Below are positions 3,258 through 54,115 of a DNA stretch of 64,000 nucleotides, one piece after another. Both the position numbers and the translations under genes were made by a program. Position 1 is the first letter of the stretch. Every line of letters starts with the position of its first letter. This DNA comes from Kaustia mangrovi (GTDB taxonomy: Bacteria > Pseudomonadota > Alphaproteobacteria > Rhizobiales > Im1). The stretch spans positions 2,532,501 through 2,596,500 of the forward strand of contig NZ_CP058214.1 in NCBI RefSeq assembly GCF_015482775.1. The letters are read 5' to 3'. The notes beneath the pieces are model-generated. The model was not told the DNA's origin. It did not search any database and saw only the letters and a program-made list of their open reading frames with translations.

Positions 3258-3929
3258 TCAGGGGCGCCCGGCGGGCACGGCGAACACCTCGCCGAGGAAC
3301 TGGCCGCCAAGCGCAAGGCCGTCCGGTGCGATACCGTGGCCGACGCCATGGGAGACATGCCACTGGACGGGAACCTCGGCGCGGCCGAGCGTCTGGGCGG
3401 CGATCTGAAGGGCGGCGACGGGGATGACCTCGTCGCGGTCGCCATGGACGAGGAGCACCGGCGGGCGGGCCGCGATCTCCGCATCGAGGTGCTCGGGGCC
3501 GGCCAGCGCCCCCGAATAGCCGAGAATGCCGGCGGCGGGCCTGGCACGGCGCAGACCCACATGCAGGCTCATCATGGTGCCCTGGCTGAAACCGACCAGC
3601 GCCAGCCGGCTGTCGTCGAGGCCGTGACGGTCGAGCTCGGCGTCGATGAAGGCGTCGAGCGCCGGCGCGGCATGCCGCACACCCGCCCAGTACTCGTCCG
3701 GATCGAGGCGCGTGAGCGCGAACCACTGCCGGCCCATCGGAGCCATGCCACAGGGCTCCGGCGCATGCGGGCTGACAAAGGCGGCGTCCGGCAGGAGGTG
3801 CTGCCATTCGCGGCCGAGCCCGATGAGATCGTTGCCGTCGGCACCGTAGCCGTGGAGGAAGATGACGAGCTGGCGGGCGGGGCCGCCCGAGGCGGGCGCC
3901 AGGCGGGGGCCGTCGAGGGTCTCGGTCAT
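3258..3929 (-). CDS. Alpha/beta hydrolase, carboxylesterase/phospholipase family
   Basis: A 223-residue serine hydrolase of the carboxylesterase/acyl-protein-thioesterase family (COG0400). The sequence shows the oxyanion-hole segment IFLHGYGADGND, the nucleophile elbow GFSQGT, and catalytic Asp (LLVHGDRDEVIP) and His (SHGVGHG) segments in the expected order. The start ATG at 3929 overlaps the stop of the upstream glycosylase gene by four bases (ATGA), so translation of the pair is likely coupled. The substrate is not predictable. Family members hydrolyse short acyl or phospholipid esters in the cytoplasm. Confidence 0.88.
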   Translation of the reverse strand: MTETLDGPRLAPASGGPARQLVIFLHGYGADGNDLIGLGREWQHLLPDAAFVSPHAPEPCGMAPMGRQWFALTRLDPDEYWAGVRHAAPALDAFIDAELDRHGLDDSRLALVGFSQGTMMSLHVGLRRARPAAGILGYSGALAGPEHLDAEIAARPPVLLVHGDRDEVIPVAALQIAAQTLGRAEVPVQWHVSHGVGHGIAPDGLALGGQFLGEVFAVPAGRP

Positions 3930-4576
3930 ATCGGGTCGGGGATCCTGTTCCGGTTGGAGGGAAGGGTGCGGTAATAGGCCCAGATCAGCCGGGCGGCGAC
4001 GGCGCGCCATGGCCGCCAGGGCATGCCGAGCGCCTGCATTCGCCTGGCGTCCGGTCTCGTGTCAAGGCCGAAGGCGGCCGCCGTCGCCGTCTGGAGCGCG
4101 AGGTCGCCCGCGGGCCAGGCGTCGCGCCGGCCGAGGCAGGCAAGCAGATAGACGTCCGCCGTCCACGGCCCGATGCCCTTGATCGCGGTGAGGGCGGCAT
4201 GGACCTCCTCGTCCGCCATCGCGCCGAGCCGGTCAAGGTCGAGCGTGCCGTCGAGCACGGCCCGGGTGAGGCTCCGGATCGTGCGGATCTTCGGGCGCGA
4301 CAGCCCCGCCGCCTGGAGGCGGGTATCGTCGAGCCCGTCGAGATGGCCGGGCTCGAGCGGCGAGAGGCTCTCCTCCATGCGCGCCCAGATGGCGGCGGCG
4401 CTGGCGGTGGAGACCTGCTGGCCGGTCACGATGTTGAGGAGACCGCGATAGCCGCCGTCGCGGCGGCGCAGCGGCGGCATGCCCGTCTCGCGCATCATGG
4501 CGGCAAAGCGCGGCTCGCGCCGGGCCAGCGCCTCGATGCCCTTCTGCAGATCGTCCAGCGTGTCGATGGTGGTCAT
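3926..4576 (-). CDS. DNA-3-methyladenine glycosylase II (AlkA-like, HhH-GPD)
   Basis: A base-excision repair glycosylase that removes alkylated purines. The 216-residue protein carries the helix-hairpin-helix AIKGIGPWTA at about residues 131-140 and the catalytic aspartate at D158 (AWPAGDLAL). This is the hallmark arrangement of the HhH-GPD superfamily. LLNIVTGQQVS near residue 50 matches the AlkA/MAG N-terminal helix. It lacks the N-terminal Ada-like domain of Escherichia coli AlkA, as do many short homologues. It is divergent from gluQ, sharing a 57-bp AT-rich spacer, and is coupled downstream to a hydrolase. Confidence 0.88.
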   Translation of the reverse strand: MTTIDTLDDLQKGIEALARREPRFAAMMRETGMPPLRRRDGGYRGLLNIVTGQQVSTASAAAIWARMEESLSPLEPGHLDGLDDTRLQAAGLSRPKIRTIRSLTRAVLDGTLDLDRLGAMADEEVHAALTAIKGIGPWTADVYLLACLGRRDAWPAGDLALQTATAAAFGLDTRPDARRMQALGMPWRPWRAVAARLIWAYYRTLPSNRNRIPDPI

Positions 4577-52155: not shown

Positions 52156-52836
52156 ATGGTCATCACCAGGATCCTCCGCGCAACGACGGACTGGCGCTGC
52201 GGCGTGCTGGCAGGCCTTCTGGCCCTTCTCGCAGTGACGGCGGGTGGACCCCCGGCCACAGCAGCCCAGGAGGCCCGGCTGACGGCCGATCAGCAGGCCG
52301 CCGTCCAGCGCATGGCAAGCTATTTCAACCAGCTGCGCAGCCTGCAGGGCGAATTCGTCCAGATCGGACCGCGCGGCCAGATGTCCAAGGGCGTGTTCTA
52401 TCTGAAGAAGCCCGGCCGGCTGCGCTTCGAATATGCGCCGCCCAACCCGTTCCTGGTCGTCTCCGACGGCGATTATGTGATCGTGAACAACCGCAAGAGC
52501 GAGGAGGCGGACTACTATCCGCTATCCCAGACGCCGCTGCGCATGGTGCTCGCCAACGATATCGATCTCGGCGACGAGGCCCGCGTGCTCGACGTCAACA
52601 GCCGGGACGGCTACACCTCCGTCACGCTCGAGGACCGCAATATGCTGGTTCCCGGCCAGCTCACCGTCGTGTTCGACGACAAGACGAACGAGCTGCGCCA
52701 GTGGATCATCGTGGACGGCAACGGCAACAAGACCACGATCTCGCTGACGAAGCTCGCCAGCGGCGTCAATCCGGATCCTAGCCTGTTCAAGGTGAAGATT
52801 CCCCGCAAGATCGAGACGGGCCCCGACCGGCGCTGA
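52156..52836 (+). CDS. lolA: LolA-like outer-membrane lipoprotein carrier
   Basis: A 226-residue periplasmic protein with a signal peptide ending near ATAAQ (residue 37) and the LolA fold. Landmarks are FNQLRSLQGEFVQIGPRGQM, GVFYLKKPGRLRFEYAPPNP and, near the C-terminus, DPSLFKVKIPRK. LolA carries lipoproteins from the LolCDE exporter to the outer membrane. The alphaproteobacterial type usually lacks a recognisable LolB partner. ATG 52156 follows GGAGCAG. The in-frame extension to 52045 lies in the ftsK-lolA spacer. Confidence 0.9.
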   Translation: MVITRILRATTDWRCGVLAGLLALLAVTAGGPPATAAQEARLTADQQAAVQRMASYFNQLRSLQGEFVQIGPRGQMSKGVFYLKKPGRLRFEYAPPNPFLVVSDGDYVIVNNRKSEEADYYPLSQTPLRMVLANDIDLGDEARVLDVNSRDGYTSVTLEDRNMLVPGQLTVVFDDKTNELRQWIIVDGNGNKTTISLTKLASGVNPDPSLFKVKIPRKIETGPDRR

Positions 52837-53005
52837 GCGGGGATCGGTGGAAAACGGATCGCAAATGGCCGCCTTATTCTTGGTGCGACATTCTGACACA
52901 TACCTTGAAAAACGCCGTTTTCCGCCGGTTCTTTGCACGTAGCGACCTTGAAAAAAGTGCGCGGGCCGGATTGAAAACGAATCACTGCGATCATACTTAA
53001 CAGTC

Positions 53006-53162
53006 AGTAGCGGTTGTCCCTCTCTCTCGTGTGGCCTCACTGCCCCCCGCTCGATGGCCACATAAAGACAACCGTGAACTGCGTCGGTTTCCCCTCCCGA
53101 CGCAAGAAAGCGCACAAGGCGCCGGGCGCCCGGGACCCCGACCGGGCGCCCACTTTCTTTTT
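53006..53162 (+). ncRNA. Candidate structured small RNA
   Basis: A possible promoter (TTGAAA at 52971, 17-bp spacer, weak -10 TACTTA at 52994) is followed by three ordered structures. The first is an outer stem CGGTTGTC/GACAACCG (53011-53018 with 53067-53074) enclosing TGTGGCC/GGCCACA. The second is a hairpin TGCGTCGG/CCGACGCA (53080-53087 with 53097-53104). The third is an intrinsic terminator. Unpaired parts are pyrimidine-rich (CCCTCTCTCTC, TTTCCCCTC, CCCCCC), suiting pairing with ribosome sites. I recognise no known family. It could instead be an attenuating leader of xthA. Confidence 0.55.
53124..53162 (+). terminator. Intrinsic terminator ahead of xthA
   Basis: GGGCGCCCGG (53124-53133) pairs perfectly with CCGGGCGCCC (53142-53151) around an 8-base loop. 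ACTTTCTTTTT follows. It lies 290 bp after lolA and 135 bp before xthA, so it more likely ends a separate short transcript than lolA itself. Confidence 0.85.
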
Positions 53163-53296: not shown

Positions 53297-54115
53297 ATGC
53301 GCATCACACTGGCCACCTGGAACATCAATTCCGTCCGCCTCCGGCAGGATCTCGTCGCGCGCTTCCTGGAGGAGGCCGCACCCGACGTGCTGTGCCTGCA
53401 GGAGACCAAATGCCCGGACGACCAGTTCCCCTCCGCCCGGTTCAGGGATCTCGGCTACGAGCACATCGCGCCGCGCGGCCAGGCGGGCTATCACGGCGTG
53501 GCGACCCTGTCGCGCATTCCCTTCCGCGAGGTTTCGCACCGGCAGTTCTGCGGCAAGCAGGATGCGCGCCATGTGGCGATCACGCTTGAGACCGGCGCGC
53601 AGCCGCTCGTTGTCCACAATTTCTACGTTCCCGCCGGCGGCGACGAGCCCGACCCGGACGTGAACGAGAAATTCGCCCACAAGCTCGCCTTCCTGAAGGA
53701 GATGCGCGACTGGTTCGGCGACGGCGCCGCCCATGACGGCCATCCCATGGTGCTGGTGGGCGATCTCAATATCGCGCCGCTGGAGACCGATGTGTGGTCG
53801 CACAAGCAGCTTCTGAAGGTCGTCAGCCACACGCCCGTCGAGGTCGAGCATCTCGACGAAGTGCGCGCCTCCCATGACTGGGTCGACGTCGTGCGCGAGC
53901 ACATCCCGCCGGAAGAGAAGCTGTTTACCTGGTGGAGCTACCGCTCGCGCGACTGGCAGGCCTCCAATCGCGGCCGCAGGCTCGACCATATCTGGACGAG
54001 CCCGGGCCTCGGATCCGCCTGCACCGGCATCGACGTGCTCTCCGGCGCCCGGAGCTGGCCTCGCCCCTCAGACCACGTCCCCGTGACGGCCGTGTTCGAC
54101 CTCGACCGCCTGTAA
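53297..54115 (+). CDS. xthA: Exodeoxyribonuclease III (AP endonuclease)
   Basis: A 272-residue exonuclease/endonuclease/phosphatase-fold enzyme that cuts abasic DNA and removes 3' blocks. Catalytic segments are ATWNINSVR, CLQETKCPDDQFP (metal Glu), GYHGVATLSR, VGDLNIAPLETDVWSHK (Asp/Asn) and RRLDHIWTS with SDHVPVTAVF (final Asp-His). ATG 53297 follows GAAGGGGA. It converges on lptE. Confidence 0.94.
   Translation: MRITLATWNINSVRLRQDLVARFLEEAAPDVLCLQETKCPDDQFPSARFRDLGYEHIAPRGQAGYHGVATLSRIPFREVSHRQFCGKQDARHVAITLETGAQPLVVHNFYVPAGGDEPDPDVNEKFAHKLAFLKEMRDWFGDGAAHDGHPMVLVGDLNIAPLETDVWSHKQLLKVVSHTPVEVEHLDEVRASHDWVDVVREHIPPEEKLFTWWSYRSRDWQASNRGRRLDHIWTSPGLGSACTGIDVLSGARSWPRPSDHVPVTAVFDLDRL

Follow-up and report, generated by a model that had tools for sequence, protein, structure and literature searches.

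RusT (CCNA_R0199) of Caulobacter crescentus, the closest described counterpart of the element studied here, is a 118-nt Hfq-bound small RNA (sRNA) encoded between lolA and xth (PMC11005374). It is repressed by NtrX, induced by iron starvation or zinc, and represses TonB receptors and OmpW via its second stem-loop. According to the portions of that paper drawn on here, RusT folds into four stem-loops with the seed, including C53, in SL2 and an Hfq site in SL3, a compensatory mutation of C53 worked for two of three targets, and homologues are reported only in Caulobacteraceae (PMC11005374). Other alphaproteobacterial sRNAs are comparable in their C-rich loops. The SmelA075/SmelA099 type has several hairpins, each with an anti-Shine-Dalgarno-like C-rich loop, as in the element described below, although in that type the loop motif CCUCCUCCC recurs in every hairpin, compared with UUUCCCCUC/UGCCCCCCG here; the terms lolA and xth are absent from the main text of that paper (PMC3927594). 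SisA-D and alphaR8 (MmgR) are likewise trans-acting, have an anti-Shine-Dalgarno core and were studied with Hfq, but in the parts of the source used they lie at other loci and do not share the promoter (PMC12559287). GsrN, which also pairs with mRNAs through a C-rich 5' loop, is described in the consulted part of its report as lying near ecfG/nepR/phyR in most species and as having a sigma-EcfG promoter (PMC5869019). None of these three genes is adjacent to the element described here, whose neighbors are ftsK, lolA, and xthA. Promoters of sigma-EcfG have a GGAAC-type -35 element, and no such element occurs in the upstream region inspected, so GsrN was rejected as an identity.

We analyzed a window of 64,000 nucleotides from Kaustia mangrovi in which ftsK, lolA, an RNA element, and xthA follow one another in a row, all on the + strand. 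In our view the element is likely to be an sRNA gene in its own right, an ortholog of rusT that represents a longer form of this RNA occurring outside Caulobacteraceae. Its parts are as follows.

52156..52836, +: lolA, upstream neighbor (Pfam LolA, 3.5e-30)
52971..52999, +: sigma-70-like promoter, with -35 TTGAAA at 52971-52976, a 17-nt spacer, and -10-like TACTTA at 52994-52999
53006..53162, +: probable RusT-type sRNA gene of ~157 nt, from the fold z-score and covariance-model homologues beside lolA/xthA
53010..53075, +: SL1, nested double stem around a C-rich loop, seen in the fold and kept in homologues
53010-53018 with 53067-53075, +: P1, outer stem of SL1
53029-53036 with 53056-53063, +: P2, inner stem of SL1
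53041..53050, +: apical loop of SL1, UGCCCCCCGC, candidate second pairing site
53080..53104, +: SL2, perfect 8-bp hairpin, stem 53080-53087 with 53097-53104
53088-53096, +: loop of SL2, UUUCCCCUC, corresponding to the seed loop of RusT (nt 45-57, with C53)
53019-53028, 53041-53050, and 53088-53096, +: C/U-rich loops
53110..53122, +: SL3, short hairpin GCGC-ACAAG-GCGC seen in the fold, located where RusT has its Hfq-binding stem-loop
53124..53162, +: SL4, intrinsic terminator with 10 G-C pairs (53124-53151), then the T-rich tail ACTTTCTTTTT to 53162
53297..54115, +: xthA, exodeoxyribonuclease III type, downstream neighbor (Pfam Exo_endo_phos, 7.4e-30; exonuclease III chains in PDB)

The length of ~157 nt follows from the promoter and terminator positions, and the promoter spacing would place the 5' end at 53004-53008. 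The promoter, nested stem, 8-bp hairpin, terminator, and C/U loops named in the preliminary description of this DNA were all found where it had placed them, and SL3, which separates the 8-bp hairpin from the terminator, was absent from that account. The terminator loop (53134-53141) also carries a C run (ACCCCGA), and in many homologues it likewise counts as the third C-rich loop.

The predicted minimum free energy of -74.6 kcal/mol is far below that of 200 shuffled sequences (-51.05 ± 4.09; z -5.76), none of which folded as well. Terminator-like sites occur in shuffled sequence at a mean of 1.7 per 2.5 kb, and because a single such site is therefore within chance expectation, the case for the element rests on conservation. 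The promoter had been called weak, in agreement with an automatic scan for the Escherichia coli consensus that lists no promoter, yet its position is conserved: 36 of 41 homologues have TTGA at the corresponding distance from the C-loop, whereas shuffling predicts 5.4. In 19 of 36 homologues (4.3 expected; for example, L003, L004, and L008), the 70 nt preceding the -35 contain a TCAC[GA] element, possibly an operator, that does not stand out in the window itself. A coding origin is unlikely given that homologue lengths vary freely (112-128 nt), and open reading frames overlapping the element are taken as chance products of a G+C-rich genome.

A search against Rfam (4227 families) gave no match above the gathering cut-off at the element and only two tRNAs in the window; the best permissive matches were MIMT1_1 (20.5 bits, cut-off 45) and tfoR (19.4 bits, cut-off 70), and none of 20 relatives scanned matched a family. 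The only match to 6S RNA (RF00013) in the genome is elsewhere (C1:3294407-3294565). Literature searches retrieved no paper on a conserved small RNA at lolA/xthA (exodeoxyribonuclease III) in Rhizobiales or Sinorhizobium meliloti, nor any report of a RusT-type RNA outside Caulobacteraceae.

BLASTn against 101 genomes matched eight (seven besides the source genome), one with an additional spurious match (L009), and the matched loci have lolA and mostly xthA as neighbors. A covariance model built from eight sequences gave matches at E<=0.01 in 61 of the 199 order genomes, and covariance-model matches at the same threshold were detected in 59 of 385 genomes of the class; both counts include chance matches. 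The remaining 69% and 85% of genomes had no match, in part because scoring was limited to no more than 18 or 9 candidates in each genome. Where a match lies does not depend on the model, and proximity to lolA or xthA therefore served as a test of the matches. Of 40 rows scoring at least 40 bits, 38 have lolA or xthA as a same-strand neighbor (9/9 at 80 bits and above, 11/13 at 50-80, and 18/18 at 40-50), and linkage was 7/9 at 35-40 bits, 3/11 at 30-35, and 2/9 at 25-30. The order search comprised 69 rows, of which 50 were linked and 19, among them tandem arrays and apparent chance terminators, were unlinked and not used. Fifty of the 61 rows from the class were inspected as loci (L013, L139-L187), and not all of these adjoin lolA or xthA.

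A pattern scan of named genomes added 57 stretches, 53 of which have a full or near-full match to model R2, which was trained without Caulobacteraceae. Of these, 52 are in records titled Alphaproteobacteria or taxa within it and one is in Bacterium MnTg02; the taxa include Parvibaculum, Rhodomicrobium, Methyloligella, Methyloceanibacter, Thermopetrobacter, and other Hyphomicrobiales. A truncated Rhodobiaceae record (L102), cut at the end of its stretch, gave only a weak R2 fragment, and the R2 match was absent from all three stretches from outside the class (L088, L136, and L137: a cyanobacterium bin, Nocardioides, and Chloroflexi).

Variation in the copy number and form of such RNAs was also observed. 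In Methyloceanibacter contig L131, the stretch from lolA to xthA contains three matches to the model (2606-2722, 2867-2984, and 3875-3996, - strand), which suggests local duplication of the RusT-type RNA. A shorter four-hairpin RNA is present in the lolA/xthA region of other alphaproteobacterial families (L164, L165, L167, L170, L171, L175, and L179), with a CUCCCCU-type loop, a C-rich terminator loop, and an overall shape intermediate to those of RusT and the long form. Away from lolA, genomes of family f31 have two to three tandem copies, spaced ~130-200 nt apart, of another sRNA-like unit (GACGCAAGATCCCCCAACGCGTCCCCCAAACTGACGC, then a terminator; L062 2001-2431, L064 2001-2283, L065 2001-2462, and L058 2001-2100), for which no Rfam match was found in L062 or L065.

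Covariation was assessed in alignment A4, which holds 41 of the 50 linked rows (L028, L030, L031, L046, L051, L057, L059, L068, and L074 were omitted). In this covariance check, which the preliminary description had proposed, changes on both sides were found in 21 of 22 pairs and 94.5% of cells were paired, figures favored by alignment to the model's own structure, compared with at most 46% of cells for slid-partner controls. The covariation score was 0.412, against 0.194 for shuffles and no more than 0.128 for slid partners. A lack of compensatory changes, which the preliminary description had named as grounds for rejecting the element, is therefore not what the homologues show. SL3 had 86.8% of cells paired with both-sided changes in 4/4 pairs, and SL4 97.5% with changes in 10/10. 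Not every linked homologue has the CCCTCCC loop: exceptions include L057 and L068, in which SL2 has diverged and whose omission from A4 favors the SL2 counts. P1 and P2 are outside the 22-pair model, and the 5' part was folded separately: the SL1 double stem forms in 41/41 homologues with 15-24 pairs enclosing the loop (20.1 on average, compared with 9.3 in dinucleotide-shuffled sequences), and the stem sequences themselves are quite different.

For direct comparison with RusT, the C. crescentus genome was recognized by PopZ (100% over 177 residues), and its lolA-xthA gap (L224) contains TTGACT-N17-ATATTT as promoter as well as an RNA that folds into four stem-loops, the loop of SL2 being AACCUAUCCCCUC. 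The published numbering (118 nt, loop at nt 45-57, C53 in CCCC) fits L224 if the start is set one base earlier (PMC11005374). The RNA in the window shares with RusT the lolA-xth gap and strand, a promoter of the form TTGA..-N17-AT-rich, a SL2 hairpin with a C-rich seed loop around C53, and an order of four stem-loops in which a short SL3 precedes a terminator with a U-run. The RusT seed block UAUCCCCUCCCG corresponds to the SL2 block UUUCCCCUCCCG of the window and is found exactly in L003 and L004; similarly, the target-pairing loop UAUCCCCUC corresponds to UUUCCCCUC and occurs in L003, L004, and others. When R2 was run on 25 loci of 24 Caulobacteraceae genomes, 19 of 20 matches were directly upstream of xthA. 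Scores there are low (10.7-30.3 bits; C. crescentus RusT 17.6 bits, E 0.027), and one of the 19 (L217) covers the terminator without the seed motif, which is present in 18 of 24 Caulobacteraceae loci inspected.

The two RNAs differ in their 5' halves: RusT, at 118 nt, has a short SL1 and lacks the C6 loop, whereas the RNA in the window is ~157 nt long with a nested SL1 and loop UGCCCCCCGC. Since the 118-nt length belongs to the Caulobacter form, we file the RNA in the window as a longer variant and not as the identical RNA. Orthology is concluded on the basis of the locus, the seed block, and the R2 matches upstream of xthA, with SL1 as the variable part; SL1 is much larger here, and its function may differ. 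They also differ in reported spread, RusT being confined to Caulobacteraceae as published (PMC11005374), compared with the long form in Hyphomicrobiales, Parvibaculum, and other alphaproteobacteria. The element had been put forward as a new sRNA, which holds in that it belongs to no Rfam family but not in that the same Caulobacter locus encodes the published RusT with the same seed loop.

Among other explanations, the one that survives best, although we judge it unlikely, is that the element is a genuine sRNA independent of RusT that arose at the lolA-xthA site, the shared CCCCUCCC loop being a convergent anti-Shine-Dalgarno sequence. Unrelated alphaproteobacterial sRNAs do have CCUCC-type loops (PMC3927594; SisA-D, PMC12559287) and SL1 differs strongly from that of RusT, but convergence would have to account for the same gap, strand, promoter spacing, and stem-loop order, for a near-identical 12-nt block (UxUCCCCUCCCG), and for graded intermediates across the class. 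We regard as very unlikely a functionless RNA, either a stable 3' UTR fragment of the lolA mRNA or a terminator serving lolA only. The short distance behind lolA (132-592 nt in 46 lolA-linked rows) would fit such a product, yet a conserved promoter separates lolA from the RNA, unpaired loops and covarying stems are conserved besides the terminator, and the RNA persists where lolA is kilobases away (for example, L081, L082, L113, and L116). Least probable of all, and in our assessment highly improbable, is the alternative raised in the preliminary description of a cis-acting xthA leader, with the terminator as attenuator and the nested stem as sensor or antiterminator: xthA, encoded on the same strand, starts 135 nt past the terminator, and most homologues also have it downstream, but in 11 of 41 lolA-linked homologues xthA is absent from the 1.0-2.0 kb that follow, the next gene in L002 is a convergent aminotransferase whose end adjoins the terminator, L005 has another gene downstream, the folds contain no conserved competing antiterminator stem, and RusT at the same location acts in trans (PMC11005374).

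The probable rusT ortholog is most likely, by analogy with RusT, a trans-acting, Hfq-assisted RNA whose C-rich loops would pair with Shine-Dalgarno regions of transporter mRNAs. The preliminary description had likewise proposed a trans-acting sRNA with C-rich loops fit for Shine-Dalgarno pairing, a proposal that gains from the conservation, the covariation, the conserved promoter and terminator, and the homology to RusT. If it works as RusT does, the RNA would be transcribed independently from ~53006 and end at the terminator, and Hfq, which is encoded in the same genome, would bind around SL3 and the terminator. The unpaired SL2 loop UUUCCCCUC would then pair in trans with G-rich Shine-Dalgarno regions and repress the mRNAs, with targets predicted to be mainly envelope and transport genes. 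Activity would probably be under envelope or iron stress, with NtrYX as the system concerned in Caulobacter. We found 29 GGAGGGGA(2-11)ATG sites against one for the reversed pattern, and 10 translations picked from these 29 include three solute-binding proteins, one cytochrome bd subunit I, and one transhydrogenase subunit; since any strong Shine-Dalgarno would give such an excess, the site list is only a lead.

The loop of SL1 sets the long form apart. CCCCCCG is present in 34 of 41 long-form homologues, whereas the RusT of Caulobacteraceae lacks the conserved loop UGCCCCCCGC/U: of 18 Caulobacteraceae loci, a single one has CCCCC in the 80 nt leading up to SL2, and there it lies inside a stem. 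We propose that UGCCCCCCGC is an extra pairing site. It is possible, though less likely than not, that the RNA serves as a regulator throughout the Alphaproteobacteria and pairs at two separate sites, one being the RusT seed in SL2 and the other the strongly conserved loop UGCCCCCCGC/U at the tip of a covarying double stem. In this reading, the retention of the loop in many families despite complete change of its stems would point to a fixed partner, a conserved RNA or protein, and not only to changing mRNA targets; Caulobacter would then have lost, or never had, the SL1-loop half. The studies found offer no explanation for this second conserved loop.

Results here indicate that the putative regulatory RNA between lolA and xthA is deeply conserved, is probably the counterpart of RusT, and is far more widespread than reported. 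An sRNA described as belonging to Caulobacteraceae thereby becomes a widely conserved sRNA of Alphaproteobacteria, one absent from Rfam, and its characterized representative, RusT, predicts the function of the family. The locus, promoter, seed, and covariance model together provide a handle for annotating this family across many genera.
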